A DNA stretch of 64,000 bases from a bacterium. Lineage in GTDB: Bacteria; Elusimicrobiota; Elusimicrobia; Elusimicrobiales; UBA9959. Below, in pieces: positions 14,572 through 62,509 of this stretch. Both the position numbers and the translations under genes were made by a program. Under the pieces are notes generated by a model that saw only the letters and a list, made by a program, of their open reading frames with translations, was not told where the DNA came from and did not search any database. The stretch spans positions 62,001-126,000 of the forward strand of contig JAJYJH010000004.1 in assembly GCA_021789695.1 (NCBI GenBank), in the 5' to 3' direction. How positions within the stretch are numbered: position 1 is the stretch's first letter; each line of letters begins with the position of its first letter.

Positions 14572-16293
14572 TCAGTCCTTGCGGCGGTCCACTATGTAGT
14601 GGCTCCTGTCGGAGGCCTTGGCGCCCTTCTTCAGCTCGGTGCCGATGTTGCTGACCTGGGCGAAGGAGTTCAGCTGGCGGGTGCCGTTGTGCACTATGCC
14701 TATGGCTATCGAGAGGAACGGGAATTTCTTTATGTTGCCTTGCCGGTCGGTGGCCACTATGTGGCCCCGCTCTCGGTCTGCCCTGTTGTAAAAGGACGGC
14801 GCGATTTCATCGAAGCCGTGTACTATGCGCTGGGCCAGCTGCTCGGCGCGCTCGTAGCCGGTGACCACGATGAAGTCGTCGCCGCCGATGTGCCCTATGA
14901 AGTCCTCGGCCTTCTCGTTCTGTATCGTCAGCTTCACCAGCAGGTTGGCCGTGGCCTTTATCACCCGGTCGCCGGCCTCGAAGCCGTAGATGTCGTTGTA
15001 GGCCTTAAAATTGTTCAGATCCAGGTAGAGCACGGCGAACTTGCCGCCCTTCTGGAGCTCGCGCTCCACGCGCGCCTGGATGGACGGATTGCCGGGCAGC
15101 CTGGAGAGCGGGTTGGTGTCGAGCACCTGGCGGTTGCGTTTGAGGATCATGCGGATGCGCGCCACCAGCTCGTCGGCGTCCACCGGCTTTATCAGGTAGT
15201 CGTCTATGCCCATGCTCAGGCCCTTTAACTTGGCGTGTTTTTCTCCAAAGGCCGTCACGATAATAATCGGAATGTGCGCGAACAGCGGGCTGTCCTTGAG
15301 GTCCTGGGCCACCTCCAGGCCGTTCTTGCGCGGCATGTTGTAGTCCAGCACTATGATGTCTGGGTTGGTTTCGAAAACTGCCCGCATGGCCTCCACGCCG
15401 TCGTTGGCCGTGACGACCTCGAAGCCGGCATACTCCACCATCTCCTTCATCAGCATCAGCAGTTCGGTCTGGTCGTCGGCCATCAGCACCCGGGGCCGGT
15501 CGGCGCGCCTTTCCGCCGGCTGCGGCGTCTCCGCGGCGGCCTCGCCGTTGCCGCCGGTCTGCTCCTCCACCAGTTTCAGCAGCAGGTCGCCGGGAATCTC
15601 GCGGGCCACTATCTCCGGCAGGCCGGTCAGTACCCCGCGCTCCTGGTAGTTCTCCAGCCTCAGCGCGCTGAGGATTATTATCGGTATGCCGACAGTGTCC
15701 ACCGACTCCTGCATCTCTTCCATTATGGCGAAGCCGTCCTTGCCCGGCATCATGATGTCCAGCAGCAGGGCGTCAGGCTTGCGCTCGCGCAGGCTGGCCA
15801 GCACCTGCAGGGGGTCGTTCACCACCACGGGGGTGTAGTCGTTGGCCTCCAGGAACATCTTAACCAGGTCAGAAAACTCGGTGTCGTCGTCGGCCACCAT
15901 CACGGTCAGCTGGCGGCCTTCCTGGGGCGGAGCGGCCTTGGTCAGCGCCGCCTTCAGCGCGTCGAAGTCCACCGGCTTGGTGAGGTAGCCGCTCACGGTT
16001 GGGGTCGGCCCTGTGACGATGTCCGTCTTCGGGGTCTGGGAGAAGATGATTATCCTTTGCCCCTCGGTGAAGGGGTTCTTGCGCAGCTCTGTGATGAGGT
16101 CCAGCGGGTTGAAGGCCTGGATCAGGATGTTCAGTATGACCAGGTCCGGCCTCCAGTTCTGCACGGCCGTCAGGGCCTGCTGGTAGCCGCCCACGGTCTG
16201 GGTGGCGTAGCCGTGCCCCTCCAGGAAAGAGGCCGTGCCGGCTGCCGCCTTGTCGGTGTCCACCAGCAGTATCTTCTTCCTGTCGCCGGCCAT
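14572..16293 (-). CDS. Triple-receiver response regulator with GGDEF domain
   Basis: The 573-residue protein holds three receiver domains (about 7-120, 128-245, 268-388) and a C-terminal diguanylate cyclase-type domain (395-570). REC1 has Asn55 where the phospho-Asp should be (LVILN), so it cannot be phosphorylated normally. REC2 has the Asp (LLLDIMMPGKDG) but the usual KP lysine is replaced. REC3 looks complete (VLDYNMPRKNG, YLIKPVD). The GGDEF signature is GGDDF, an accepted active variant. It may make cyclic di-GMP in response to phosphorylation of REC3. No kinase is adjacent. The ATG lies 6 bases after a TAGAAT on the minus strand, so the transcript may be leaderless. Confidence 0.88.
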   Translation of the reverse strand: MAGDRKKILLVDTDKAAAGTASFLEGHGYATQTVGGYQQALTAVQNWRPDLVILNILIQAFNPLDLITELRKNPFTEGQRIIIFSQTPKTDIVTGPTPTVSGYLTKPVDFDALKAALTKAAPPQEGRQLTVMVADDDTEFSDLVKMFLEANDYTPVVVNDPLQVLASLRERKPDALLLDIMMPGKDGFAIMEEMQESVDTVGIPIIILSALRLENYQERGVLTGLPEIVAREIPGDLLLKLVEEQTGGNGEAAAETPQPAERRADRPRVLMADDQTELLMLMKEMVEYAGFEVVTANDGVEAMRAVFETNPDIIVLDYNMPRKNGLEVAQDLKDSPLFAHIPIIIVTAFGEKHAKLKGLSMGIDDYLIKPVDADELVARIRMILKRNRQVLDTNPLSRLPGNPSIQARVERELQKGGKFAVLYLDLNNFKAYNDIYGFEAGDRVIKATANLLVKLTIQNEKAEDFIGHIGGDDFIVVTGYERAEQLAQRIVHGFDEIAPSFYNRADRERGHIVATDRQGNIKKFPFLSIAIGIVHNGTRQLNSFAQVSNIGTELKKGAKASDRSHYIVDRRKD

Positions 16294-16336
16294 CTAGCGA
16301 TTCTAACATTTTTAAGGTCGGGACTTTTGGTAGAAT

Positions 16337-16564
16337 TTGAAGGTGGGGCAGAAGGACGATTATTGGAATTACGCCCAGATAGGGTTGGAACTGACCGCGG
16401 CGGTGCTGCTGGGGTTCTGGGCCGGCTACGAGCTGGACAAGAAACTGGGCACATCCCCCTGGCTGATGCTGGGCGGGGCTGCGGCCGGCATGGCGGCCGG
16501 GTTCTATACGGTGGCGCAGGAGTTGTTCCGCCTGAACGGGCCGCGCGGCGGGGGCAAGAAATGA
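16337..16564 (+). CDS. atpI: AtpI-like assembly factor of F-type ATP synthase
   Basis: The 75-residue protein has two membrane helices (YAQIGLELTAAVLLGFWAGYEL and WLMLGGAAAGMAAGFYTVA) joined by the DKKLGTSP turn typical of AtpI/AtpQ-family proteins, which help load ions or assemble the c-ring. It starts with TTG at 16337; a GTG at 16343 is an alternative, and lies at the predicted transcription start of a TAGAAT -10 box (16331-16336). It heads the F-type operon and overlaps the next gene by four bases. Confidence 0.8.
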   Translation: MKVGQKDDYWNYAQIGLELTAAVLLGFWAGYELDKKLGTSPWLMLGGAAAGMAAGFYTVAQELFRLNGPRGGGKK

Positions 16565-16848
16565 CTCTTACTCCCGTATCGGCCGCGCTTTCCGGCGCGC
16601 TGACGGGGCTGGCGTCCGGCTGGCTTTCCAGGCTGGCGCTGAAGCGGGTGTTCCGTTCCGAAGACAAGGTTTTCTACGCGGTCTTCGCGGGCGGCATACT
16701 GGCCAGGCTGGCGCTGCTCGCCTGCGCGGTTTGGATTTTAAGACGCGAAAATTATATAATAATTGTCCTGTTTTCCGTGGCTTTGATCTTGACGCAGACG
16801 GTTTTCGAGGCTTTTCCTCTTAAGCATGGGACTAAAAGAGATACTTGA
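16561..16848 (+). CDS. Small membrane protein of the ATP synthase operon (ATP synthase subunit I-like)
   Basis: The 95-residue protein begins at the ATG that overlaps the atpI stop (ATGA) and ends 23 bases inside atpB. It has about three to four hydrophobic segments (ALSGALTGLASGWLS, VFYAVFAGGILARLALLACAVWIL, NYIIIVLFSVALILTQTVFEAFPL). Size, charge and place between atpI and atpB match the second small subunit I-like protein seen in many bacterial F-type operons. A direct role is not proven. Confidence 0.7.
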   Translation: MTLTPVSAALSGALTGLASGWLSRLALKRVFRSEDKVFYAVFAGGILARLALLACAVWILRRENYIIIVLFSVALILTQTVFEAFPLKHGTKRDT

Positions 16849-17587
16849 GCACCATGTGGTGGACCATGTCTGGTCCTGGATAGCGCTGGGGCCGTTGCAT
16901 CTTCCCGTCTCGCGCTTCCTGCTGATGATGGCGATAGCGGCCGTCATCCTGCTTGTCGTCTTTCCGCTCGTCATACGCAGCCGCTCCGCGGCGCTGGCGC
17001 CCTACCGCTCTATGATAGAGATGGTGGTGTTGTTCGTCCGCGACGAAATAGTGCTGCCGAACCTGGGCTCGAAGGGCCCGGGCTATATGCCCTATTTCGC
17101 CACGCTTTTTTTCTTCATCCTGATCATGAACCTTATAGGGCTGGTGCCCTACGGCTCCACCGCCACCGGCAACTGGTCCGTCACGGGTGGTCTGGCGCTA
17201 ACCAGCTTCGTGCTGATAAACTTCGCTGGCATGCGCGAGCAGGGCGTGTTGGGCTATCTGGGCCACATCGTGCCCAGGGGCGTACCGGGCTGGCTGTACG
17301 CGCCCTTGTTCGTCATAGAGCTGCTGAGCCTGGTTACCAAGACCGTGGCGCTCTGCGTGCGTCTCTTCGCCAATATGGTGGCGGGCCACATCGTGATCCT
17401 TTCCTTCATCAGTTTCATTTTCATCTTTGGCACGCTGGGTACGGGGGTGGGCCTGGCGGTGTCGCCGGTGTCGGTGGCGCTGGTGCTGTTCTCGCTGCTG
17501 TTGGAGGTCTTCGTGGCCTTCCTGCAGGCCTACGTTTTCGTGTTTCTGACGGCCATCTTCACCGGCATGGCCATGCACCCCCATTGA
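16826..17587 (+). CDS. atpB: F-type ATP synthase subunit a
   Basis: The 253-residue integral membrane stator subunit forms the ion half-channels beside the c-ring. Its essential arginine is in KTVALCVRLFANMVAGH in the next-to-last long helix. NLIGLVPYG and the C-terminal LQAYVFVFLTAIFTGMAMHPH are also standard. Length is normal. The start codon lies inside the preceding gene, so translation is coupled. Confidence 0.95.
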   Translation: MGLKEILEHHVVDHVWSWIALGPLHLPVSRFLLMMAIAAVILLVVFPLVIRSRSAALAPYRSMIEMVVLFVRDEIVLPNLGSKGPGYMPYFATLFFFILIMNLIGLVPYGSTATGNWSVTGGLALTSFVLINFAGMREQGVLGYLGHIVPRGVPGWLYAPLFVIELLSLVTKTVALCVRLFANMVAGHIVILSFISFIFIFGTLGTGVGLAVSPVSVALVLFSLLLEVFVAFLQAYVFVFLTAIFTGMAMHPH

Positions 17588-17635
17588 GCGGGACGGATTT
17601 TTGGTTCATGGTTGATCTTAAACGGAGGTAGTACA

Positions 17636-17932
17636 ATGAACGACTTGACGTTTCTCGGTCTCGGCTATATAGGCGCCGGCGTAGGCGCCGGCCTGACGCT
17701 GATAGGCGCCGGAGTGGGCATTGGCCTGGTAGGCAAAGGCGCGGTGGAAGGCACCGCCCGCCAGCCAGAGGCCGGCGGCGCACTGCGCACCACGATGATC
17801 ATCGCGGCGGCCCTTATCGAGGGTCTCGCCTTCTTCGCGCTGGTCATCTGCCTGCTGGCTGTGATGAACTTCTCGATGCCGAAGCCGGAGCCCGGCGCCG
17901 CTGTCCCGGCCCAGACCGCGGCCCAGAAGTAA
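17636..17932 (+). CDS. atpE: F-type ATP synthase subunit c
   Basis: The 98-residue proteolipid forms the rotor ring. Helix 1 carries the glycine motif GAGLTLIGAGVGIGLVGKG, the polar loop is ARQPEA, and helix 2 holds the ion-binding Glu in MIIAAALIEGLAFFALVICLL. The residue after this Glu is Gly and helix 1 has Leu in place of the Na+-ligand Gln, so a proton-coupled ring is predicted. The ATG at 17636 has an excellent ribosome site (ggaggt), stronger than its neighbours, as expected for the subunit needed in most copies. An Ala/Pro-rich C-terminal tail of about 20 residues is unusual. Confidence 0.95.
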   Translation: MNDLTFLGLGYIGAGVGAGLTLIGAGVGIGLVGKGAVEGTARQPEAGGALRTTMIIAAALIEGLAFFALVICLLAVMNFSMPKPEPGAAVPAQTAAQK

Positions 17933-17985
17933 GCCGCGCGCGACCAGGGGGCGGGGCCGCGCGCCGCCGCCCGCCGCGCGCTTTT
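17931..17985 (+). terminator. Attenuator-like stem-loop between atpE and atpF
   Basis: Directly after the atpE stop, AAGCCGCGCGC can pair (one bulged C) with GCGCGCTT at 17976-17983. An inner GGGCGG/CCGCC stem fills the loop, and TTTT follows. Such a structure can halt part of transcription or protect the atpE message, raising the ratio of c subunits over the rest. Confidence 0.5.
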
Positions 17986-18008
17986 AGAACCAGCAGCCAG
18001 GAGCCGTT

Positions 18009-18530
18009 ATGGAAGCGTTGATAAAGCCCGAATTCGGTCTGATGTTCTGGACCATACTCTGCTTCGTCCTGCTGAGCGTGGTGCTGGCCCGCACGGCATG
18101 GGGCCCTCTGATGAAGGCGGTGGACGACCGCGAGAAGGCCATAAAGAGCGACCGTCGCGCCGCGGAGACGGCCAGGGCCGAGGCCGAGAAGGCCAGGGCC
18201 GAACTGGAGTCCCGGCTGGCCGAGCTGAAGGCCGAGATATCCCGCAGGCTGGAAGAAGCCCGCGCGCAGGCTTCGCGCGAGAAAGACTCCGTCATAGAGG
18301 AGGCCCGCCGCAGCGCGGCCCAGATAGTGGAGTCCTCCCGCCGCGAGATAGAGGCTCAGAAACTGGAGGCCGCCCGCGACCTCAAGAACAAGGTGGCCGA
18401 GCTCTCCGTGCTGGCCGCCGAGCGCATCCTGCTCAAGCAGTTGGACCGCCGCGCCAACACCGACCTGGCCTCCCGTTACCTCTCCGAGCTGGAGAAGGAG
18501 AAGCCGGAACTGAGTCTGGGGAACAACTGA
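18009..18530 (+). CDS. atpF: F-type ATP synthase subunit b
   Basis: The 173-residue peripheral stalk protein has one N-terminal membrane helix (FGLMFWTILCFVLLSVVLA) followed by a long Ala/Glu/Arg-rich coiled coil (residues 35-150), the dimeric stalk that binds subunit delta. Length is usual. Ribosome site caggag is present. Its stop overlaps the atpH start by one base. Confidence 0.93.
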   Translation: MEALIKPEFGLMFWTILCFVLLSVVLARTAWGPLMKAVDDREKAIKSDRRAAETARAEAEKARAELESRLAELKAEISRRLEEARAQASREKDSVIEEARRSAAQIVESSRREIEAQKLEAARDLKNKVAELSVLAAERILLKQLDRRANTDLASRYLSELEKEKPELSLGNN

Positions 18531-19084
18531 TGGACCCGAGCGCCAGAATACTAGCCAAGCGCTATGCCAGGGCCTACATGGACCTGGACGGCAAGCCCTA
18601 CGGCCCCGAAGCCGAGGCGGGCGCCCTGAAGAAGCTGGAATGCCTGATAAGGGTCTTCGAACTGGCGCGCCCCTACCGGAAGGTGCTGACCCATCCCGCG
18701 ATAAACAGCGAGGTGAGGCTGGAGGTGCTGGGGAAGATACTGGGCGCGACCAACTGCGGCCCGGCGGCGGCCTTCTCCGCGCTGCTGGTGCGCGAGGGGC
18801 GCTTCGGCCTGCTGGACGAGGTCATGGCGGAGTGCGTGCGCCTCAACGATTCCTTCCGCGGCCTGGTGCGCGCCGAGGTGTACAGCCGCTACGAGCTTTC
18901 CGAGGGTGAGATGAAGCGGATGACGGCGCTGCTGGCCGCGGCGGTGGGGAAGAAGGTGAGCCTGCGCCAGGTTCTGGCCGAGCGCGTGCTCGGCGGGTTT
19001 GAGATAAAGATCGGGGACAACCTTATAGACGCCAGCGCGCGAGGCAGGCTGGAGGCCATGAAGGCCGGCCTGCTGAGAACATAG
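18530..19084 (+). CDS. atpH: F-type ATP synthase subunit delta
   Basis: The 184-residue protein links the peripheral stalk to the top of the alpha3beta3 head. ARILAKRYARAYMD at the start, an all-helix N-terminal domain (RPYRKVLTHPAINSEVRLEVLGKIL) and the C-terminal LGGFEIKIGDNLIDASARGRLEAMK are the family hallmarks. Start chosen at the ATG overlapping the atpF stop (TGATG). Confidence 0.92.
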   Translation: MDPSARILAKRYARAYMDLDGKPYGPEAEAGALKKLECLIRVFELARPYRKVLTHPAINSEVRLEVLGKILGATNCGPAAAFSALLVREGRFGLLDEVMAECVRLNDSFRGLVRAEVYSRYELSEGEMKRMTALLAAAVGKKVSLRQVLAERVLGGFEIKIGDNLIDASARGRLEAMKAGLLRT

Positions 19085-19096
19085 CCTGAGGACCTT

Positions 19097-20614
<1,518 letters not shown>

Positions 20615-20629
20615 GATAAGGAGACGGCC

Positions 20630-21553
20630 ATGAAAAGGTACCTTGTAACGGGCGGGGCTGGTTTCGTCGGGGCCAACGTGGCCTTCGCGCTCGAACACGA
20701 GCGCAAGGCCGCCGTGGTCGTGCTGGACGACTTCTCCTCCGGCCATTACAAGAACCTGAGCGGTTTTGCCGGCGAGGTGGTGACCGGCGACATTGGCTCG
20801 CGCGGCTGGTTCGAGCGGGTGGGCCGGGTGGACGCCATCCTGCACCAGGCCGCAGTGGTGGATACCACCGAGACCGACCAGCGCAAGATGATGGCCGTCA
20901 ACGTGGACGCCTTCCGCAACGTGCTGGAGTACGCCGCCGTTTACGGCGTGAAGAGCGTGGTCTACGCTTCCTCGGCCGCCGTTTATGGCAATTCCAAGTG
21001 CCCGATGCGCGAGGACCAGGAGCCTACGCCGGAGAACGTCTACGGCTTCTCGAAGGCCATCATGGACAACGTCGCGCGCGAGTTCGCCGCCTCGCGCAAG
21101 GACATGACCATAGTCGGCCTTCGCTACTTCAACGTGTATGGCCCGCGCGAATATTACAAGGGCAAGATGGGCAGTATGGTCTTCCAGCTCTACAACCAGA
21201 TGAAGGCCGGCAAGCGCCCGCGCGTGTTCAAGTACGGCGAGCAGACGCGGGATTTCGTCTACGTCAAGGACATCGTGCGCGGCAACCTGAACGCGCTCGA
21301 CGCCAAGCGCTCCTGCGTCTGCAACCTGGCCACCGGCAAGCCAGGCAGCTTCAACGACATCATCGAGGCGCTCAATAAGGCGCTGAAGACCGACCTGAGC
21401 CCGGAGTACATCGACAACCCCTATCCGTTCTATCAGAACAGGACGCAGGCCGATATGCGTAACGCGAAGGCGCTTATTAATTACCGGCCCGAGTGGAGCC
21501 TGGCCGACGGCGTGGCTGACTACGTGAAAATACTGGAGAAGGCTAAGATCTGA
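20630..21553 (+). CDS. HldD-like ADP-glyceromanno-heptose 6-epimerase inside the ATP synthase operon
   Basis: The 307-residue short-chain dehydrogenase-type epimerase has the Rossmann loop GGAGFVG (8-14), SSAAVYG and the catalytic Tyr/Lys pair in VYGFSK. The segment LRYFNVYGPREYYKGKMGSM and the C-terminal FTQADL-like RTQADMRNAKAL are typical of HldD/RfaD, which turns ADP-D-glycero-manno-heptose into the L form for lipopolysaccharide inner core. It could also be a related nucleotide-sugar 4-epimerase. It lies between atpA and atpG, with gaps of 15 and 4 bases, and has an aaggag ribosome site, so it is made with the ATP synthase. No other heptose gene is nearby. Confidence 0.75.
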   Translation: MKRYLVTGGAGFVGANVAFALEHERKAAVVVLDDFSSGHYKNLSGFAGEVVTGDIGSRGWFERVGRVDAILHQAAVVDTTETDQRKMMAVNVDAFRNVLEYAAVYGVKSVVYASSAAVYGNSKCPMREDQEPTPENVYGFSKAIMDNVAREFAASRKDMTIVGLRYFNVYGPREYYKGKMGSMVFQLYNQMKAGKRPRVFKYGEQTRDFVYVKDIVRGNLNALDAKRSCVCNLATGKPGSFNDIIEALNKALKTDLSPEYIDNPYPFYQNRTQADMRNAKALINYRPEWSLADGVADYVKILEKAKI

Positions 21554-21557
21554 GTTT

Positions 21558-22460
21558 ATGGCCTCATTGCGAGACATCCGGAAGCACATCTCTTCCGTCA
21601 AAAGCATCAAGCAGATAACCTACGCCATGAAGATGGTGGCGGCCGCGCGCATCAAGCGCGCGCAGAACGCCATCCTGTCGGCGCGCCCCTTTGCGGAGGA
21701 GATGGACCGCCTGATAGCTGACCTCTACGGCGAGCTCTCCGGCGACGACCTTTACGGCACCGAGGCCGGCCGGCTCTTCGAGGAGCGGCCAGCGGACAGT
21801 CCCCTCTGCCTGGTGCTGGTCACCGGCGACAAGGGGCTCTGCGGCTCCTTCAACACGAACCTGCTCAAGGCCGCCGCGGCCTGGATGCGCGCGAACCGCG
21901 GCCGGAAGATTTACGCGCTGGCCGCCGGCCGCAAGGGCCGGGACTTCCTGCGCCGCCTGAAGGGCCTGGACCTGGAGCTCTCCCACGAGCTGGTCGGCAT
22001 CTTCCCCAAGGTAACCTACGCGCACGCCCAGATTCTCAAGGAGGCCGTGCTGAAGCTCTACGACGAGGCCGGCGTGGAGAGCGTGACGCTGATTTACAAC
22101 GAGTTCAAATCCATGATGGCGCAGCACGTGGTCACAGACCAGTTGCTGCCGCTGAAGAAGCACATATTGGAGGCAGGCCCGGAGCGGCCTCCCAGGAGAA
22201 CGGACTTTTCCTTCGAGCCGCAGAAGACCGAGCTGTTGGGCGCTCTGCTGCCGCGCCACATAGGCGCCCAGCTTTACCGCACGCTGCTGGAGTCGCAGGC
22301 GGCCGAGCTGGCGGCCCGCATGAGCGCGATGGAGGCCGCCTCCAAGAACGCGGCGGACCTGATAGACGGGCTGACGCTCAAGATGAACAAGACCCGCCAG
22401 GCGATGATCACCACCGAGCTCAACGAGATCGTGAGCGGCTCGGAGGCGCTGAATGGTTAG
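21558..22460 (+). CDS. atpG: F-type ATP synthase subunit gamma
   Basis: The 300-residue central rotor shaft has the N-terminal coiled coil (RDIRKHISSVKSIKQITYAM then KMVAAARIKRAQ) and the matching C-terminal helix (AMEAASKNAADLIDGLTLKMNKTRQAMITTEL). The middle domain carries VTGDKGLCGSFN. It starts 4 bases after the epimerase stop, with its ribosome site inside that gene. Length is normal. Confidence 0.95.
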   Translation: MASLRDIRKHISSVKSIKQITYAMKMVAAARIKRAQNAILSARPFAEEMDRLIADLYGELSGDDLYGTEAGRLFEERPADSPLCLVLVTGDKGLCGSFNTNLLKAAAAWMRANRGRKIYALAAGRKGRDFLRRLKGLDLELSHELVGIFPKVTYAHAQILKEAVLKLYDEAGVESVTLIYNEFKSMMAQHVVTDQLLPLKKHILEAGPERPPRRTDFSFEPQKTELLGALLPRHIGAQLYRTLLESQAAELAARMSAMEAASKNAADLIDGLTLKMNKTRQAMITTELNEIVSGSEALNG

Positions 22461-22469
22461 AGAATTTAA

Positions 22470-23915
<1,446 letters not shown>

Positions 23916-23924
23916 GCCGGGGCC

Positions 23925-24359
23925 ATGGACAAGAAACATCTCCTGCTCACCATAGTCACTCCGGAAAGGACCGTGCTTTCCGGGAAGCCGGTGGACTCCG
24001 TGGCCGTTCCTGCGGCCGGCGGCGAGCTGGGCGTGCTGCCCGGCCACGCGCCGTACGTGGTGCAGCTCAAAGAAGGGATGATGCATTACAAGGACGGCCC
24101 CAACAAGGAGTTTTTCTCTGTGCTCTCCGGTTTCGCCGAGATCGCCCCCGACCGGGTGCTGGTGCTGGCGGAGGCTGCTGAACTGGCCAAGGAAGTGGAC
24201 GAGGAACGCGCCAGGCAGGCCTACCAGAAGGCAAAGGATAAGCTGTCCTTCAAACCGGCCGACCTGGACCTGGAAGAGGCCGGCGCGGCCCTGCGCCGCG
24301 CCGCCGCGCGCCTGAAAGTGGCCGAGTTCCAGCGCAAGCGCCGCAGGCAGCAACAATAA
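23925..24359 (+). CDS. atpC: F-type ATP synthase subunit epsilon
   Basis: The 144-residue protein has the ten-strand beta sandwich (LTIVTPERTVLSGKPVDSVAVPA, GELGVLPGHAPYV) and two C-terminal helices (DEERARQAYQKAKDKL and the Arg/Ala-rich end) that can extend into the head and block ATP hydrolysis. It is the last gene of the F-type operon, and a strong terminator follows 18 bases on. Confidence 0.93.
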   Translation: MDKKHLLLTIVTPERTVLSGKPVDSVAVPAAGGELGVLPGHAPYVVQLKEGMMHYKDGPNKEFFSVLSGFAEIAPDRVLVLAEAAELAKEVDEERARQAYQKAKDKLSFKPADLDLEEAGAALRRAAARLKVAEFQRKRRRQQQ

Positions 24360-24377
24360 GCGTCCGCCGGCCCGGGA

Positions 24378-24406
24378 ATACCCCGCTCCGAGCGGGGTAT
24401 TTTTTT
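24378..24406 (+). terminator. Strong intrinsic terminator of the F-type ATP synthase operon
   Basis: A perfect 10-bp stem (ATACCCCGCT / AGCGGGGTAT) with a 3-base loop is followed by seven T residues. It clearly separates the F-type from the V/A-type operon. Confidence 0.93.
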
Positions 24407-24438
24407 GTTTTGCCGGGCCTTGCATTTCCCGGCCCTGT

Positions 24439-24516
24439 TTGCTAACCTGAACTTGGGGGAAGTCAATAAAACGTAAGGCACCGGTTCCGCGGCTCCGCCG
24501 CGGTGCACGGCTTTTT
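24439..24516 (+). promoter_or_regulatory. Putative promoter and leader hairpin of the V/A-type ATPase operon
   Basis: A weak promoter may be formed by TTGCTA (24439-24444) and TCAATA about 18 bases on. A perfect 7-bp GC hairpin (CCGCGGC-tcc-GCCGCGG, 24487-24503) follows, and a T5 run sits at 24512-24516. This could be a leader attenuator. The -10 match is poor. Confidence 0.3.
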
Positions 24517-24535
24517 AGTGCGCGGAGGGGTGGGG

Positions 24536-24877
24536 ATGAAGGAAATCATAGACAGGATACTGGCTGCCGAGGCCGAGGGCGGGCGAGCCGTAGCCGAAGC
24601 CCGTTCCCGCGGCGAGGCCGTCCTGGCCGCCGCGCGGGCGCGGGCGGTAGAACTGAGGGAGACCCTTCTAAGGACCGCGGAGCTGGAGGCCGCCGCGCGG
24701 GCGGAAGAGCTCCTGGCCGCGGCCGCGCGGGCGCGGGCGGAAAGGCTCGAGCGCCGGCGCCGGGAGCTGGAAGCCGTTATTTCCGGGCGCTCCGGGAGGC
24801 GGGCCGAAGCGGCGCGCGAAGCGGCGCGCTTGGTGCTTGGAGCGGGACGGGGGGCATGGACGGAGTCAAGGACATAG
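24536..24877 (+). CDS. V/A-type ATPase peripheral stalk subunit H (G-type)
   Basis: The 113-residue protein is an almost unbroken Ala/Glu/Arg-rich helix, typical of the H (also called G) subunit that pairs with subunit E in the peripheral stalks. The first 15 residues MKEIIDRILAAEAEG are the conserved part. The ATG at 24536 follows a GGAGGGG ribosome site. A frame extension upstream to 24503 is unlikely. It overlaps subunit C by 22 bases. Confidence 0.75.
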   Translation: MKEIIDRILAAEAEGGRAVAEARSRGEAVLAAARARAVELRETLLRTAELEAAARAEELLAAAARARAERLERRRRELEAVISGRSGRRAEAAREAARLVLGAGRGAWTESRT

Positions 24878-25809
24878 AATACCTGGCGGCAAGGCTCCAC
24901 GGCCGCCGCGCCAGATTGGCGGAAGGCGCGCGGCTGAGGGCCCTCTGCGCCCTCGGCTCAACGGCGGCCCTGGCAGAAGCGCTGTTGCCTGGCTCCGGTA
25001 TAAAGGAGGCCGCGCCGCTTCAGCGGGCTCTCGCCGGGCGGCTGGCCGCCGAGGTCCTGGAAATAGCCGATTCGCTTGCCGGTCCGCTAGGGGAGTTCGT
25101 GTGCGGAGAGTGTGACCGCTTCAGGCTAGAGAACATCAAAACCGCGGCGCGTTTTCTGGAGTCCGGCCGCGAAGGGGCTGCGCCGGAAGAGCTGTTCATC
25201 CGGCTGCCGGCGGAGCTCGGCTGCGGACCTGAGTTGGCGGCGGCCGGCAGCAGGGAGGAGTTGGTTTCCCTTGTGCCGGCCGGGCCGCTGCGCTCGGGGC
25301 TGTTCCGCGTTTATACAAGGCAGCCCACGCCCGCGCCGGTTTTCGCGCTGGAAACGGCCCTGGAAAGGGGCCGTCTGGAATACGCCGCGGAGCTGGCGGG
25401 GCGGCTCGGCGGCCGCGACGGAGAGGCCGCCTCGCTTTTCTGCCGGTTGAACACGGCGCTGTTCGGGGCGTTGCTGGCCGCGCGCCTGCGGCTGACGCCG
25501 GGAGCCGGGGACGCGGCGGAGCCGGTCAGCGCTAAGGCGCTTACAGAGGAAGCCTTCGTTCTCGCCGGCCTGGCGGCCGCCGGCGAGGCCCCGGCGGACC
25601 CGGAGCTCTCGGCCTGGGCGATTTACTCCGGGCTGGCAGGCAGGTATTTCAGGCGCTGGCACATGACGTTCGGCGCGGCGCTGTTCTATCTGGCGTTGCG
25701 GCTGAATGAGCTGCGCGCGCTTGGGACCGTTTCGGAGGGGTTGCGCCTGAAGATTCCTGCGGGCGAACTGGCCGTTCTCGCGGGTTCAGCGGGAGACGCG
25801 GATGTTTAG
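24856..25809 (+). CDS. V/A-type ATPase subunit C (central stalk cap)
   Basis: The 317-residue helical protein starts DIEYLAARLHGRRARL, the usual start of subunit C/d, which sits on the K ring like a funnel and holds the D/F shaft. RLENIKTAARFLESG and ELRALGTVSEGLRLKIPAGEL mark repeats of the three-lobed fold. Family members are about 320-350 residues. It overlaps the I gene by 8 bases. In many bacterial V/A operons C follows E; here it comes second. Confidence 0.83.
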   Translation: MDGVKDIEYLAARLHGRRARLAEGARLRALCALGSTAALAEALLPGSGIKEAAPLQRALAGRLAAEVLEIADSLAGPLGEFVCGECDRFRLENIKTAARFLESGREGAAPEELFIRLPAELGCGPELAAAGSREELVSLVPAGPLRSGLFRVYTRQPTPAPVFALETALERGRLEYAAELAGRLGGRDGEAASLFCRLNTALFGALLAARLRLTPGAGDAAEPVSAKALTEEAFVLAGLAAAGEAPADPELSAWAIYSGLAGRYFRRWHMTFGAALFYLALRLNELRALGTVSEGLRLKIPAGELAVLAGSAGDADV

Positions 25810-27691
25810 GCCGGCCGAAATGCGGAGGCTGGAAGCCGTGCTGCCGGCTGAAAAGCTGGAGGCCGCCCTGCGCGGCCTGGGGAGCGCGGGCGCGGTGGAG
25901 CTTTCCCGGGCGGCCTATCCCGCCGTTTCCGGCGCGCAGCGGCCTGAAACCAGCTACGCCGCGCTCTCCGTCCGGCTGCGCGCCCTGATAAAAAAACTTG
26001 ATTGCGGCGGCGCGGCACCTGCCGGGCGCATGAGCGCCGCAGAGGCCGTTGCAGCGCTGGACCGTTGGGAGCGGGCCTCCGGCTATCCGCTCAAGCGCCG
26101 CGCCGAGCTGGAGGCGGAACTGCCTGGCCTGCTGGCGGCGGCAAGAGGGACCGCTCCTTACCGCGGCCTGGCGCTGCCGTGCATGGGGCACGGCCTGCGC
26201 TTCGTCTGCCTCCGCGCGGGCAGCCTGCCTGCGAATGCGGCGGATGGGCTGGAAGGCTCCATCCCGAGGTTCTGGGCGCTGCTGGTCCTGCCCTCCTCCG
26301 GAGGGCGTGTCGGGGTCTTGGCGCTGGCGCCGAAAAGCTTGGAGGCGGAACTGGACGCCTGGCTGAAGAGCCTCGGTTTTGCTAGTTCCGATGCCGGCGG
26401 GCCAGGCCTGACGCTGGGCGCCATGGCGGCTGGCGCCGCCGCGCGGGCCGAGGCCGCCGCGGCGGAGCTGCGCAGATTCTCCGACGGAATCCGCGCTCTG
26501 GCTCTGGGGGCCGCCGGCGCGCTGGCCTCAGCCTCTCAAGCTCTGGCCGAGGCTGGGGCCCTCGCCGAGGCCGGCGCGCTGGCCGGCCGCACGGCCAGCG
26601 TCGCCGTGCTCTTCGGCTGGGTGCCGGCCTCGCAGGCCGGCAGGGCCGGGCGGGTCTTGGCGGAAGCCTGCGGCGGCCTTTGCGCGGCGGAAAGCCGTTC
26701 GCCCGAGCGCGGCTCTTCCCCGCCGGTGCTGTTGGCCCAGCCGGGGTTGCTGAAGCCTTTCGCCGCGCTGGTGGCAGCCTACGGCCTGCCCCGCTATGGC
26801 GGCTTGGACCCCACGGTCTTCGCGGCGCTGATTTTCCTGCCTATGTTCGGCATGATGTTCGGGGACTGCGGTCACGGAGCCCTCGTCGGTTTTGTAGGGC
26901 TATGGTTGGCCCTGCGAGGCCGGCCTGACCTGCGGGCTGCGGGCTGGGGCGTCTTCGCCTGCGGCCTTTCTTCTATTTTCTTCGGCCTCCTCTACGGCAG
27001 TTTCTTCGGCCTGGAAGGTTTTAAAAAATACGCGCTGTGGCGGGATCCACTTGCGGGTGACCCTCTGGCCCTGATAAAAATCGCGCTGGCCGGGGGCGTG
27101 GCGGTTATAACGCTCGGGTTGATTCTGAATATTCATTCCCGCCTTCGTTCCGGAAATCTGGCCGGCGCGCTGCTGGGCAGGTTCGCCCTGGCCGGCCTGA
27201 TATTCTACTGGGGAGCTCTTTCCGCCGCCGCCGGCCTGCTCCCTTTCGCGGTCGCCATTCCGCTAGTCTGCGCTGGCGTTCTTTGCTGGGTGGCGGGTGG
27301 GCTGGTCCCGGGCCTGGAGCCGGGAGCGGAGGGGAGCGGTCGCGCCGGGGCCCTCGCCGCCGCGGCGATAGGGGCCTTTGAGGGCGCGTTGCTTTACCTG
27401 GCCAACACTGTCAGCTTTGTGCGCCTGGCCGCATACGCGCTCAGCCACGCCGCGCTGCTGGCGGCCGCGCTTTCCCTGCGCGACGCGGCCGACGGAATCT
27501 GGGGGCGGGGCTGTCTGGCCGGGGTGCTGTCCCTCGTGGCCGGCAACGCCGCGGCCATAGGCCTGGAGGGGCTGGTGGCCTCGGTACAGGCGCTCAGGCT
27601 GGAGTACTACGAATTCTTCGGAAAGTTCTTTGAGACCGGCGGGAGGCCTTTCAAGCCTTTCGTTCTTCAAGTTGGAGGTGAACCCAGATGA
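25802..27691 (+). CDS. V/A-type ATPase subunit I (a-subunit homologue)
   Basis: The 629-residue stator subunit has a soluble N-terminal half with helical arms and a C-terminal half of about seven to eight membrane helices. PTVFAALIFLPMFGMMFGDCGHGALVG and NTVSFVRLAAYALSHAALLAAAL are family signatures. The arginine in SFVRLAAYALSHA is the likely ion-path residue facing the K ring. The soluble half is Ala-rich with little sequence conservation, as is common. Confidence 0.9.
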   Translation: MFRPAEMRRLEAVLPAEKLEAALRGLGSAGAVELSRAAYPAVSGAQRPETSYAALSVRLRALIKKLDCGGAAPAGRMSAAEAVAALDRWERASGYPLKRRAELEAELPGLLAAARGTAPYRGLALPCMGHGLRFVCLRAGSLPANAADGLEGSIPRFWALLVLPSSGGRVGVLALAPKSLEAELDAWLKSLGFASSDAGGPGLTLGAMAAGAAARAEAAAAELRRFSDGIRALALGAAGALASASQALAEAGALAEAGALAGRTASVAVLFGWVPASQAGRAGRVLAEACGGLCAAESRSPERGSSPPVLLAQPGLLKPFAALVAAYGLPRYGGLDPTVFAALIFLPMFGMMFGDCGHGALVGFVGLWLALRGRPDLRAAGWGVFACGLSSIFFGLLYGSFFGLEGFKKYALWRDPLAGDPLALIKIALAGGVAVITLGLILNIHSRLRSGNLAGALLGRFALAGLIFYWGALSAAAGLLPFAVAIPLVCAGVLCWVAGGLVPGLEPGAEGSGRAGALAAAAIGAFEGALLYLANTVSFVRLAAYALSHAALLAAALSLRDAADGIWGRGCLAGVLSLVAGNAAAIGLEGLVASVQALRLEYYEFFGKFFETGGRPFKPFVLQVGGEPR

Positions 27692-28011
27692 AAAAGAAAT
27701 GTTCGAGCCTGGCCGCGGCGGTCCTGGCGTTCTGCGCCAGTCCGGCGGCGGCCGCTGCAGCGGCCGCCGCCGATTCCGGGGACGGACTGAACCGCTACAA
27801 GGAGATCGGTTTAGCCTTCTCCGCCGCCCTGACGATGAGCGTGTGCGTGCTTGGCGCGGCTTACGCCGTGGCGCGCATAGGCGCGGCCGCGATGGGGGCC
27901 GCTACGGAGAAGCCCGAGCTGCTGATGCGCAGCCTGATGTTTGTGGCGCTGGCGGAGGGGCTGGCCGTGCTTGGCTTCGTCATCGCGATGCTGATACTGG
28001 GTAAGATGTGA
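27688..28011 (+). CDS. V/A-type ATPase proteolipid subunit K
   Basis: The 107-residue protein has a Lys-started, Ala-rich signal-like N terminus, then two membrane helices. The second helix (LMFVALAEGLAVLGFVIAMLIL) has the ion-binding Glu in ALAEGLAV. The Na+-type LPGTQ motif of the sodium V-ATPases is missing, so protons are the predicted ion. The single-hairpin form is like that of Thermus, not the doubled eukaryotic one. Overlaps subunit F by four bases. Confidence 0.88.
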   Translation: MKKKCSSLAAAVLAFCASPAAAAAAAAADSGDGLNRYKEIGLAFSAALTMSVCVLGAAYAVARIGAAAMGAATEKPELLMRSLMFVALAEGLAVLGFVIAMLILGKM

Positions 28012-28277
28012 GCGCCAAGGACTCGTTCTTCTGCGTGGGCGGGGAGGAGACGGTGCGCGGTTTCGCGCTGGCCGGCGTGCCGGGGGCCGTGGCGCGCGAC
28101 CTGGCCGGAGCCGAGGCGGCGCTGGCCGCGGCGGCCGGCGCCGGCTGCGCCGTGCTGATAATCTCCTCTCCGGTGGCGGGGCTTGCCCGCGCGGCGGTGG
28201 ACAAGCTGAGATTCGGGCGCCGCCCCCTGGTAGTGGAGATAGAGGAGACCGCGGCCGGAGGCTCCGTGTGGAAGTAA
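28008..28277 (+). CDS. V/A-type ATPase subunit F
   Basis: The 89-residue Rossmann-like protein of the central shaft starts with GTG at 28008 overlapping the K stop (GTGA). FFCVGGEETVRGFALAGV is the family's first strand and helix, and VLIISSPVAG is the third strand. It is a little shorter than the usual 100 residues. It overlaps the E gene by 10 bases. Confidence 0.82.
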   Translation: MSAKDSFFCVGGEETVRGFALAGVPGAVARDLAGAEAALAAAAGAGCAVLIISSPVAGLARAAVDKLRFGRRPLVVEIEETAAGGSVWK

Positions 28278-28885
28278 TAGGCGATCCCGAGGGTCTGGCC
28301 GCCCACGCGCTGGAGGCGGCGCGCCGCGAGGCCGAAAGGCTGCTGGCCGCGGCGGAAGAGGAAGCCGCTGAGCTGTTGGAGAAGGCCCGAGCCGGGGCCG
28401 AGGCCGAAGCTCGCGGGCGCGCCGAGGCCGCCGGAGCGGAAGCAGCCCGCCGCGCGGAGATGCTGCTGGGCGCGGCGGAGGGTGAGGAAACCCTGCTGCT
28501 GGCCGCGCTCCTGGAAGCCGAACTGGAGGAGGTCAGGATGGGAACCGAACGCTTGCTGCGCGTGGAAAGGACGGCGCACGAGGGCCGGACCCTGGCGGCG
28601 CTGGCGGCCCAGGCCGTGGCCGGCATGGCCGGAGAGGCTTTCGTACTGCGGACGTCTCCGGAGGACGAGGCCGCGCTGTGCGCCGCGCTGCACGAAGTGG
28701 GCCGGCTGGCCGGCAGGGAAGGGCTGCGGCTGGAGGTGGAGGTGGATCCTTCCGTAGGCGGCGGCGTAGTCGTCCAGGCTGCCGGCGGCGGGCAGTTATG
28801 GGACAACAGCCTGACGGGCAGGCTGGAGAGGCTCTGGCCCTCGCTGAGAACGGAGTTGGCCGGCTTCCTGGGGGATAAGCCATGA
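28268..28885 (+). CDS. V/A-type ATPase subunit E
   Basis: The 205-residue stalk subunit has an Ala/Glu/Arg coiled coil (residues 12-75) and a C-terminal alpha/beta head (LRLEVEVDPSVGGGVVVQAA, then LWDNSLTGRLERLWPSLR) that binds subunit B. The VGGGVVV and DNSLTGRLER segments match the family. Starts with GTG at 28268. Overlaps the A gene by four bases. Confidence 0.85.
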   Translation: MEVIGDPEGLAAHALEAARREAERLLAAAEEEAAELLEKARAGAEAEARGRAEAAGAEAARRAEMLLGAAEGEETLLLAALLEAELEEVRMGTERLLRVERTAHEGRTLAALAAQAVAGMAGEAFVLRTSPEDEAALCAALHEVGRLAGREGLRLEVEVDPSVGGGVVVQAAGGGQLWDNSLTGRLERLWPSLRTELAGFLGDKP

Positions 28886-30654
28886 CTGGCCGGGACGGAA
28901 AGGGGCGTGTTACGGGGGTGAGTGGCCCGGTGGTTTCGGCCGACGGGATGGCCGGCGCGCGGATGTACGAGGTAGTGCGCGTGGGCGGGTTGGGGCTGGT
29001 CGGAGAGGTGGTCAGGCAGGCCGGGGATTCGGCCACGGTGCAGGTTTATGAGGATACCTCCATGTTGAGGCCCGGTGCGCCGGTGGAACTAACGGGAGCG
29101 CCTCTCTCCATCTGGCTGGGCCCGGGGCTCATCGGGAATATCTTTGACGGAGTGCAGCGCCCGCTGCCGGAACTCAAAAGGCTGTCCGGCACGTGGATAC
29201 GGCGCGGTGACAGGGTCGACCCGCTGGACCTCTCCAGGCGCTGGGATTTCGAGCCGCTGTTAAAGGCCGGCCAGGAGATCTCCCCGGGTCAGGTCATAGG
29301 GTTGGTCAGGGAGACGCCGCTTGTGATGCACAAAGTGCTGGCTCCGCCGGAGATGAAGGGAACGGCGGTATCCGCCGCTCCGGCCGGGGGCTATACCCTG
29401 CTGGAAGAGCTGGCCTCCGTGAGGACAGCCGACGGAACAATGCCGTTGAGGATGCTGCAGAAGTGGCCCGTGCGGACGCCGCGGCCGGTGCGCGGAAGAC
29501 TGCGCGTCAGCGAGCCGCTCGTCACGGGCCAGCGCGTGATAGACTCTCTGTTCCCGCTGGCCAAGGGAGGCTGCGCCTGTATCCCCGGCGGTTTCGGCAC
29601 AGGCAAGACCATAACGCAGCACCAGCTGGCCAAGTGGTCTGACGCCGCGGTAGTAATCTTCATCGGCTGCGGCGAGCGCGGCAACGAGATGACCGAGGTA
29701 TTGCGCGAGTTTCCGGAGCTTAGGGACCCGCGCTCCGGCCGCCCGCTGATGGAGCGGACTATCCTGATAGCCAACACCTCTAATATGCCGGTGGCCGCGC
29801 GCGAGATCTCTATCTACACCGGCATCACGATGGCCGAGTACTACCGCGACATGGGCCTTGATGTGGCCGTGTTCGCGGATTCTACGAGCCGCTGGGCCGA
29901 GGCGCTGCGCGAGATGGCCGCGCGGCTGGAGGAGATGCCGGCAGAGGAGGGTTTTCCGGCGAGCCTGCCTTCGAGGCTAGCACAATTCTACGAACGCGGC
30001 GGCGCCGCGACCTCGCTGGGGGGAGAGAAAGGATCGGTCACCATCGTAGGGGCTGTCAGCCCGCCCGGAGGAGATTTCTCGGAGCCGGTCACGCAGCACA
30101 CGCGGCGCTTCACGCGCGTGTTTTGGTCGCTCGACCCGGAGCTCGCCAACGCCCGGCACTACCCGTCCATAAACTGGCTGCGCTCCTATTCCGATTATCT
30201 CGACGAGGTCGGGGAGAGCGTGGAGAAAGCTTTCCCAGGCTGGCGCGGGCTGAGGGACGGGGCCGTGGAGGCGCTGCAGCGCGAGGAGCACTTCCGGCAG
30301 GTGGCCAAGCTGGTAGGGCCTGACTCGCTTCCCGACGGCCAGCGCCTGCACCTGTTTTTCGGCGGCCTGCTGCGCGACGGCTTTCTGGCGCAGAACGCCT
30401 TTGACCCGGAGGACTCCTGGTGCCCGCCGGAGAAACAGGGAGCGTTGCTGGGGCTGCTGATGGATTTCTACCGCGCCGCGGGCGCGCTGATAGCCGCCGG
30501 CACGCCGCTTTCCGAAGTGGCGGCCCTGCCCTGCGCGGCTGCCCTGGTCAGGGCGAAGACAGAGTGCCGCGGGACGGCGGAGCTGGCGGCGCTGCGGGAG
30601 CGGATGCGCGGGGAACTGGCTCGCCTAGGACGGGCCGGAAGGGGAAAGGAATGA
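28882..30654 (+). CDS. V/A-type ATPase catalytic subunit A
   Basis: The 590-residue catalytic subunit has the P-loop GGFGTGKT, the [15 protein letters not shown] catalytic region and [13 protein letters not shown]. The bulge domain typical of A subunits (residues about 110-190) is present, which separates it from F-type beta. All residues known to be needed for ATP hydrolysis or synthesis are in place, so the enzyme should be functional. Overlaps B by four bases. Confidence 0.96.
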
Positions 30655-32075
30655 GCGCCGGCGACGGCCTGGAGTATATAGGGGCCTCGCGTATAGAGGG
30701 CCCGATAGTGGCCGTGGAGGGCGTGCGCGAAGTCGGTTTCGACGAACTGGTGGAGATAAAGGACCCGTCCGGCCGGCGCAGGCTCGGGCGCGTGCTGGAA
30801 GTCTCGCGCGAGAACGCGGTGGTGCAGGTACTGGAGGGGACCGAGGGTCTGTGCGGGGCTACGCTGCACGCCCGTTTTTTGGGCGAGAGCCTGCGGATCC
30901 CGGTCGGGGAGGAAATGCTCGGCCGCGTCTTTGACGGGCTGGGCCGGCCAGCCGACGGCGGGCCGGCGCCCTTCTCCGGGGACAGGCGCGACGTCAACGG
31001 CGCCCCGATAAACCCGGTGGCTCGCCGCTATCCGAGAGAGTTCATCCAAACCGGCATCTCAGCGATAGACGGCATGAACTCGCTGGTGCGCGGCCAGAAG
31101 CTGCCGGTCTTTTCCGGCAACGGCCTGCCGCACGACCGCGTGGCCGCGCAGCTGGCGCGCCAGGCGAAACTGCCGGGAGAGGACGGCAGGTTCTGCGTGG
31201 TCTTCGCCGCTATGGGTGTAAAGCGTGACGTGGCCGATTATTTCAGGCGCGACTTCGCCGAGTCAGGCGCGCTCTCCCGCACGGCGATGTTCCTTTCGCT
31301 GGCCGACGCGCCTGGCGTGGAGCGGCTGCTGACGCCGCGTGCCGCGCTGACGCTGGCCGAGCATCTCGCCTTTGACCTTGGCCGCCACGTGCTCGTGATA
31401 CTCACGGACATGACGAACTACTGCGAGAGCCTGCGCGAGGTCGGGACTGCCCGCGGCGAGATTCCGGGCCGCAAGGGGTACCCAGGCTATCTCTATTCCG
31501 ACCTGGCCTCGCTCTATGAGCGGGCGGGGCGCGTGGACGGCTCTCCGGGCTCGATCACGCAATCGGCGATCCTGACGATGCCTTCCGATGATATCAGCCA
31601 TCCCGTGCCTGATTTGACCGGCTATATCACCGAGGGACAGATAGTGCTGGACCGGGAGCTGTTCCAGCGCGGCGTTTACCCGCCGATAGCCGGCCTCCCC
31701 AGCCTGTCGCGCCTGATGAAGGACGGCGTCGGCAAGGGCTATACGCGCGAGGACCACCCGGCGCTGGCAAGCCAGCTGTTCGCCTGCTACGCCTACGTCA
31801 AGCGTGTGCGCGCGCTCGCGGACATCATAGGCGAGGAAGAACTGGGCGCGCTGGACAGGCGTTATCTGGAATTCGGGGAAGCCCTTGAACGCCGCTTCCT
31901 AAGCCAGGGGGAACGCGAGGACAGACCGATAGGGCGCACGCTGGACCTGGGCTGGGAGATGCTGTCCCTGCTCCCGCGCGATGAGTTGCGCCGCGTCAGC
32001 TCCGCACTTCTGGATGGACATTACGGGAGGAATCCGGCCACGCTTCCGGACGGGGGGGGGGATGGCGCTGCTTGA
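30651..32075 (+). CDS. V/A-type ATPase subunit B
   Basis: The 474-residue non-catalytic head subunit lacks a P-loop ([15 protein letters not shown] stands there), as usual. [14 protein letters not shown] and the [16 protein letters not shown] region are strong signatures. The ATG at 30651 overlaps the A stop. A run of ten G residues (32052-32061) lies in its last codons just before the D start, giving a Gly-rich tail. Confidence 0.95.
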
Positions 32076-32733
32076 GGTGCCGGCCACCAAGTCCGCCCTG
32101 CTGGCTTTGCGCAGGCAACTGGAATTCGCCGAGGAGGGATATGCGCTGCTGGACCGGAAACGGGAGCTTCTGCTCCTGGAACTGGCGGAAACGCGCAAGA
32201 AGGCGGCCGTGGCCGGTCTGGAAGCGGGTAGGACGCTGTGTGCCGCCTTTTCCGCGCTGCGCGCCGGCGAACTTTCCGGCGGCGGAGCGGCGGTGGACAG
32301 GGGCTCCGCCGGCGCTCCGCCGGCGCCGGCCGTCGTCATAAAGGAGCGGCGTCTGATGGGGGTGGTCCTGCCAGAGGCTTCTGCGCCGCCGCCTACGGGG
32401 TCGCAGGCCTTCGGCCCGGTTGGAATGCCGCCCGAAGCGGCGCTGGCGCGCGGACTCTTCTGCCGGGCGCTACCGGGGCTGGCCGCGCTGTCTGGCCTGC
32501 AGACCTCGGCCGCGCGCCTGGCCGCGGAACTGAGAAAAACGCAGCGCCGCTGCAACGCGCTGTCCAAGAAGGTCATCCCGGACTGCCGTGAGACGATCCT
32601 TTACCTAGGCGGGGCGCTGGAGGAGCGCGAGAGGGAGTATTTTACGACGCTAAAACTGATACGCGGGCGCTTAAAGCTAGCGCGCTCAGGCCCGGGCGGT
32701 ATGAACGGCGACGGCTCCGGGGCAGATGATTGA
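32062..32733 (+). CDS. V/A-type ATPase central shaft subunit D
   Basis: The 223-residue protein has two long helices that form the rotor shaft: [21 protein letters not shown] at the start and [21 protein letters not shown] near the end (the RRVNALE-type motif of the family). A short Gly/Ala/Pro-rich loop joins them. The ATG at 32062 follows a ten-G tract that also must serve as ribosome site. It overlaps B by 14 bases and is the last gene of the operon; its 3' end overlaps the convergent methyltransferase gene by 48 bases. Confidence 0.88.
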
Positions 32734-61799: not shown

Positions 61800-62509
61800 T
61801 GTCTTTTTCTAACAGATCCGATACGGTTTCAGCCTGTTCTACTGAGCGGGTCTACTCCAATTCAGGGAACTTGCCTCTGATTTCTCTCATCTCCGGAAAA
61901 TTCGGAAAAGTACTTGATGTGGGATGCGGTGCAGGGGATAATGCGGCATTAATCAGGTCCATTGACCCCAGAGCTGAACTTTATGGGGTGACTCGGTCCT
62001 CAAGGGAGGCTGAACTAGCGGGAAGATACATGACTTATTGTTGGGTATCGGATGCTGAGAGTTCTCTCCCGGAAGCTTTGTCGAAACTTTCTTTTGATGT
62101 TATCGTGTTTTCGCATGTTCTAGAGCATTTCCGTGAACCCGCGGATGTCTTGTCAGGTTTTTCCAAGCTTCTTCGACCAGGCGGAGTAATCTTGATTGCA
62201 GTTCCGAACATAGTGTCCTGGAAAATGAGGCTTGAGTTTTTGACAGGTAGTTTTGAGTATGACTCCGCTGGACCTTTGGATGATACGCATCTGCGATTTT
62301 TTACCTATCATAGCGCGGATAAGTATTTGCTGTCTAAAACTCCTGAGTTGACAGTTGTCGATAAACTCGGGGATGGGAGTGTGCCTCTTTGGTGGCTGCG
62401 AAGGTATGTCTTTCCGCGGAGATTATCCGAGTATCTTGATAAGTACGGGAGCAGGTGCTGCCCAAATCTTTTTGCAGGACAAGTTTTAATAAAGGCCGTA
62501 AAAAAGTAA
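61799..62509 (+). CDS. Class I SAM methyltransferase in AT-rich patch
   Basis: The 236-residue protein has motif I VLDVGCGAGDNAALI, FDVIVFSHVLEHFREP and KLLRPGGVILIAVPN of Methyltransferase_23-like proteins, which are often found in O-antigen or other surface glycan clusters. It starts on the ATG overlapping the glycosyltransferase fragment's stop (TAATG). Codon use (TTT, GAT, TCT, AAT) is unlike its neighbours, a sign of horizontal transfer. Confidence 0.85.
   Translation: MSFSNRSDTVSACSTERVYSNSGNLPLISLISGKFGKVLDVGCGAGDNAALIRSIDPRAELYGVTRSSREAELAGRYMTYCWVSDAESSLPEALSKLSFDVIVFSHVLEHFREPADVLSGFSKLLRPGGVILIAVPNIVSWKMRLEFLTGSFEYDSAGPLDDTHLRFFTYHSADKYLLSKTPELTVVDKLGDGSVPLWWLRRYVFPRRLSEYLDKYGSRCCPNLFAGQVLIKAVKK

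Follow-up and report, generated by a model that had tools for sequence, protein, structure and literature searches.

In the standard F-type ATP synthase operon, atpBEFHAGDC, atpG stands directly after atpA, and few gene neighborhoods in bacteria are as stable as this junction. The gene hldD encodes ADP-glyceromanno-heptose 6-epimerase; in Escherichia coli K-12, under the name rfaD, it heads rfaD-waaF-waaC-waaL. In Helicobacter pylori, HldD is HP0859, its gene lies in the heptose cluster HP0857-HP0860, and its knockout leads to truncated lipopolysaccharide (LPS) (PMC8204981). The locus described here belongs to a bacterium of the order Elusimicrobiales (phylum Elusimicrobiota; assembly GCA_021789695.1) and lies in a stretch of 64,000 nucleotides, positions 62,001 to 126,000 of contig JAJYJH010000004.1, hereafter called the window. 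It shares subunit order and strand with the standard F-type operon but carries hldD between atpA and atpG, in contrast with the positions of the H. pylori and E. coli genes.

The window protein is HldD, an ordinary enzyme, and what is novel is the gene order around it. The position of hldD is genuine and ancient, and it has been passed on mostly by vertical descent. No mention of a heptose gene in an atp operon was found in the literature, which is weak evidence as most subscription journals lay outside the search.

An epimerase gene within the ATP synthase operon

The operon runs in the order atpB-E-F-H-A-hldD-G-D-C. An earlier note on this DNA had reported an epimerase gene separated from atpA by 15 bases and from atpG by 4, and the open reading frames (ORFs) of the window confirm it: the last base of the atpA stop is 20614 and hldD begins at 20630; hldD in turn extends to 21553, with atpG beginning at 21558. 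The hldD ORF is intact, with 307 amino acids (aa), an ATG start and no internal stop, and its neighbors are true F-type subunits by NCBIfam. The features of the operon are as follows.

16337..16564, + strand: first gene of the operon, for a small AtpI-like membrane protein (ORF; named by position and look, without model confirmation)
16826..17587, + strand: atpB, F0 subunit a (TIGR01131, 137.9 bits, cut-off 102.6)
17612..17932, + strand: atpE, F0 subunit c, probably starting at 17636 (ORF; named by position and sequence, without a model)
18009..18530, + strand: atpF, F0 subunit b (TIGR01144, 93.2 bits, cut-off 65.5)
18530..19084, + strand: atpH, F1 delta (inner start of ORF 18098-19084; named by position)
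19097..20614, + strand: atpA, F1 alpha (TIGR00962, 819.4 bits)
20630..21553, + strand: hldD, ADP-glyceromanno-heptose 6-epimerase (TIGR02197, match to PDB 3sxp, fold, catalytic residues)
21558..22460, + strand: atpG, F1 gamma (TIGR01146, 279.5 bits)
22494..23915, + strand: atpD, F1 beta (TIGR01039, 781.6 bits)
23925..24359, + strand: atpC, F1 epsilon (TIGR01216, 113.2 bits, cut-off 67.25)
24374..24404, + strand: intrinsic-terminator-like hairpin closing the atp-hldD operon (14 pairs, T run, just after atpC)

The place of atpE is conserved in relatives and that of atpH in most of them; a match to the small membrane protein at 16337..16564 likewise occupies the same place in most relatives. Eight terminator-like sites are found in the region against 5.8 expected by chance, and the hairpin at 24374-24404 has by far the longest stem. 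The remaining sites on the + strand are short and chance-like, and none is present on that strand between atpA and atpD. Positions 16000-25000 contain no Rfam family at gathering score.

Codon adaptation, calculated with rpsB, tsf, atpA, and atpD as the reference set, provides a proxy for expression. The value for hldD is 0.625, compared with 0.553-0.648 for atpB, F, H, G, and C and 0.55-0.72 for the atp genes overall; nine other heptose/LPS genes score 0.369-0.544, all below hldD. The earlier note stated that the epimerase gene must be co-expressed with its neighbors. Short gaps, the lack of an internal terminator, and operon-like codon usage make co-expression likely.

Identity of the epimerase

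Assignment of the window protein to HldD relies on family models, catalytic residues, structure, and phylogeny. The protein scores 313.5 bits on the HldD model TIGR02197, above the curated cut-off of 274.6, and 127.1 bits on the galE model TIGR01179, below the cut-off of 262.3. On the E. coli-type HldD model NF008360 it reaches 190.8 bits, below the cut-off of 452, and hence falls outside that narrower subfamily. The nearest solved relative by sequence is the H. pylori HldD (3sxp, E 9.9e-71), followed by E. coli HldD (1eq2, 8.7e-45). A structure predicted from 39 aligned rows has a mean predicted local distance difference test (pLDDT) score of 93.9; its best Foldseek match is 3sxp (45% identity, template modeling score 0.91), and its best VIA-align match is 3sxp_D (Z 42.0, root mean square deviation 1.6, 297 residues). 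The next VIA-align matches, from Z 41.2 downward, are uridine diphosphate (UDP)-sugar epimerases, the nearest less than 1 Z unit behind; HldD and these enzymes therefore cannot be told apart by fold alone.

S115, Y138, K142, and K177 of the window protein match E. coli S116, Y140, K144, and K178, which we take to be the catalytic Ser, Tyr, and Lys of the short-chain dehydrogenase/reductase (SDR) fold and the second lysine of HldD. Every one of the 37 atp-operon rows in the tree keeps all four (a set that includes three rows labeled "x" in the tree, whose operon was confirmed by locus inspection), while two other epimerases checked in the window genome, L002 and L003, lack the K178 motif. In the 62-row tree, all HldD rows stand apart from the other epimerases included (support 100/99); the window protein groups with H. 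pylori HldD on a branch that is not strong (95/70), and E. coli HldD joins the phylum's other HldD type. The H. pylori enzyme resembles the window protein in family model, S/Y/K/K residues, fold, and length. The E. coli enzyme resembles it in family and catalytic residues, and the structural alignment with 1eq2 gives 34% identity. The second HldD type of Elusimicrobiota, exemplified by G116, belongs to the same family, shares about 31% identity with the window gene, and in G116 stands beside hldA.

The ratio of nonsynonymous to synonymous substitution rates of hldD against three relatives is 0.139, 0.137, and 0.160. The earlier description of the gene as HldD-like can be strengthened to HldD on the basis of the family model, the residues, and the fold match, and the structural search, indecisive by itself, placed an HldD rather than another epimerase family at the top. 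The window protein is accordingly predicted to have the HldD activity, and it most likely serves LPS.

Conservation of the gene order

Comparison with related genomes shows that the arrangement is widely shared within the order. Among the named relatives, all Elusimicrobiota, the best 80 of 360 loci are 57-94% identical, and atpA-hldD-atpG lies on one strand in every one of these 80. A second set, overlapping the first in species, consists of 101 Elusimicrobiales genomes including that of the window; 93 carry a strong hldD match, and all 93 were examined. The order atpA-hldD-atpG is present in 92 of them, among which is G067, a single-contig genome of 1,643,562 bases. In the 93rd, G034, hldD-atpG is present and the contig ends 758 bases upstream without reaching atpA. 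The gaps are mostly short: at most 20 bases between atpA and hldD in 81 of 89 genomes measured, and at most 20 bases between hldD and atpG in 76 of 92. The spacing in sister genomes bears out the suggestion of a lineage-specific insertion, one that extends over several families of the class Elusimicrobia.

Eight of the 101 genomes lack this hldD. In two of these (G036 and G046) atpG directly follows atpA, and in G098 the contig begins inside atpG; the other five (G006, G008, G019, G037, and G052) yield no atpG match, and their junction cannot be judged. Two genomes display lineage-specific genes inserted around hldD, of 371 aa in G092 (L271:2501-3616) and of 178 aa in G095, where about 590 bases separate atpA and hldD (L280).

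Heptose genes in other core operons

The genome of the window contains a single TIGR02197 match, the atp-operon gene; the next epimerase matches are at most 34% identical to it. A check for heptose genes elsewhere in the genome, proposed in the earlier note, returned candidates for gmhA, hldA, hldC, and a GmhB-like phosphatase, some scoring below cut-offs.

gmhA: contig C4, 198.6 bits (cut-off 209.45); between pyrH and frr, L172:6842-7414
hldC: contig C42, 180.6 bits (cut-off 181.5); at the end of the accB-accC operon, L173:7388-7861
hldA: contig C43, 355.8 bits (cut-off 345)

Around hldA on C43 are two GT9 glycosyltransferases, one of them above the heptosyltransferase II cut-off, together with lpxK, the GmhB-like phosphatase, kdsB, and kdsA. 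With these genes and the atp-operon hldD, all five steps of the ADP-heptose pathway have a candidate, and the atp-operon gene is the sole candidate found for the last step. Three ADP-heptose genes of this genome therefore reside in three core operons: hldD in atp, hldC after accC, and gmhA at pyrH-frr.

The same habit is seen in relatives. Directly or after gmhA, hldC follows accC in 18 of 19 genomes examined, from Endomicrobium to the window's genus; the exception is G046, which has a fused hldE-like gene. In all nine f1 genomes examined gmhA adjoins pyrH, with frr next where the locus reaches, and in all six examined outside the order it is beside accC; in all four f2 genomes examined it is in neither place. 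These counts leave out the divergent gmhA-hldE sets of G018 and G133, and the gmhA count omits G133 altogether, its only gmhA match belonging to that set. The divergent sets are a second gmhA-hldE pair in each of the two genomes (L179 and L184), found by coordinates in several others too, and perhaps serve another heptose polymer.

Distribution and evolution

Outside the order, the location of hldD varies between families. This hldD type lies directly before atpG in 12 of 12 f7 genomes examined that carry it, in the one f8 genome, and in both f4 genomes; for G152 and G204 (f7) and G155 (f8), the order was settled by another locus of each genome. G122 (f3) and G177 (f9) carry the same type elsewhere and have a plain atpA-atpG junction, and G107 (f13) carries it between unrelated genes. 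The junction is also plain in f5 (three examined) and f6 (one examined), and the genomes of the genus g6 have a plain atp operon. The second HldD type is represented by 12 rows from f1, f2, f5, f6, f10, f17, f19, f20, and f21 that form one group with E. coli, and it adjoins hldA in G116, G110, and G161. A clean exchange of the atp-located gene for this second type was rejected as a general rule: G036 fits it, G085 carries the two types together, and a TIGR02197 match at 1e-50 is lacking in G046.

Distances between HldD proteins correlate with those between AtpA proteins (r = 0.810 over 34 shared rows; a value this high in none of 2000 shuffles), as expected under vertical inheritance. The families f1, f2, and f7 form groups on the HldD tree and broadly do so on the AtpA tree. 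At least five families have kept the atp-located gene, although identity between their HldD proteins has fallen to about 49%. A single origin of the atp location as one clade of the HldD tree is unsupported, as the location label needs three changes there and four on the AtpA tree; the position was either gained once and lost several times or gained at least twice.

Other genes in and beside the atp operon

The atp operons of several families harbor further small genes. In f7 and f8, a conserved protein of about 143-164 aa with a signal-peptide-like start is encoded between atpA and hldD (L137:5550-5981, L140:5576-6040, L234:5551-5982, and L136:5726-6220). Between atpG and atpD, small proteins judged PilZ-like by eye occur in f5, f7, and f8 (L137, L140, L136, L127, L128, and L129), and proteins of 232 and 222 aa resembling outer-membrane barrels, again by eye, occur in f9 and f3 (L123 and L125).

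In the window, a V/A-type ATPase operon (24503-32733, + strand) begins about 100 bases past the F-type terminator, placing two rotary ATPase operons side by side. Its subunit I is identified by models and its other subunits by eye. Of the 80 named loci, 11 show V-type subunit matches after the F-type operon; many of the 80 do not reach far enough to reveal them.

Explanations for the placement

The explanation that we consider highly probable is that hldD entered its place among the F-type ATP synthase genes in an ancestral member of the class Elusimicrobia and was then inherited mostly vertically. The gene would be transcribed with atpBEFHA-GDC from one message and, as a member of a core operon, would yield epimerase steadily and in step with growth; the enzyme itself would not act on ATP synthase. 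Its position would exemplify a wider habit of the phylum, whose ADP-heptose genes are scattered among core operons instead of being clustered. In this explanation we infer the enzyme activity, the single message, and the idea that hldD owes its place to expression level. Several observations weigh against it. Gaps exceed 20 bases in 8 of 89 genomes between atpA and hldD and in 16 of 92 between hldD and atpG. An unrelated response-regulator gene of the window has a codon adaptation of 0.684, and the codon index is therefore suggestive and not specific. The window hldD type scores about 259-322 bits on TIGR02197, compared with about 321-408 for the phylum's other type, from which it is separated by an identity of only about 31%. 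The gmhA and hldC scores are just below the NCBIfam cut-offs, and the GmhB-like phosphatase, at 104-143 bits, is below those for GmhB. Finally, three near-complete genomes of the same class (G138, G200, and G239) have heptose genes and no TIGR02197 match at 1e-50; heptose genes can thus occur without a recognizable HldD.

Doubts about the identity of the gene or the locus carry little weight. That the protein is another nucleotide-sugar epimerase, GalE-like or acting on UDP-sugars, merely resembling HldD is very improbable: the SDR fold and the close Z scores are common ground, but the protein passes TIGR02197, fails TIGR01179, keeps the second lysine, and is joined by the tree to the H. pylori and E. 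coli enzymes. On family scores, lysine, and tree, a GalE-like enzyme in particular was rejected. The genome is a draft in 63 contigs, yet an assembly chimera in a metagenome bin has practically no chance of producing the same order in 80 named loci and 92 genomes of the order, one of them in a single contig, and this recurrence of atpA-hldD-atpG across relatives rules out chance or misassembly.

The more substantial alternatives concern why the gene stays. According to one, placement was selected so that LPS heptose supply follows ATP synthase or the membrane energy state through joint regulation, an idea close to the earlier proposal that LPS core supply is coupled to ATP synthase production. 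The persistence of the order, with short gaps in most Elusimicrobiales and also in f4, f7, and f8, and the envelope-related- or regulatory-looking genes inside the atp operon in f3, f5, f7, f8, and f9 would be consistent with it. The proposal nonetheless seems improbable, since hldC and gmhA sit in the acetyl-CoA-carboxylase and pyrH-frr operons without any ATP synthase link, G177 and G122 keep the same hldD type outside the operon, and g6 has a plain one; these facts point to housekeeping-level expression and not to a specific link. Alternatively, hldD could be a relic that arrived by rearrangement and persists since its removal would disturb atpG expression, the place having no benefit of its own. 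Several unrelated inserts in the atp operons of this class, and the absence of the atp location from f3, f5, f6, f9, and g6, fit such a history; its retention across at least five families despite the divergence of HldD, the repeated placement of heptose genes in core operons, and the operon-like codon usage of hldD do not, and we regard a neutral relic as unlikely while granting it a real chance. We favor growth-linked co-expression in a core operon over a specific link to ATP synthase on two grounds: heptose genes occur as well in core operons that have nothing to do with ATP synthase, and several families do without the atp location.

Implications

A conserved foreign gene at the atpA-atpG junction, its sequence diverging while its position is kept, offers a testable case of operon membership for expression level as opposed to a shared pathway. 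A rather speculative extension is that the atp operon of the class Elusimicrobia is a recurrent home of envelope-related genes (hldD, PilZ-like, outer-membrane-barrel-like, and small secreted proteins) that puts ADP-heptose supply under the same control as ATP synthase; if true, the cell would link construction of its envelope to production of the energy-coupling machine. The locus also illustrates that, in a Gram-negative phylum, the genes for LPS heptose synthesis can be distributed across core operons, an organization that cluster-based pathway annotation would miss.
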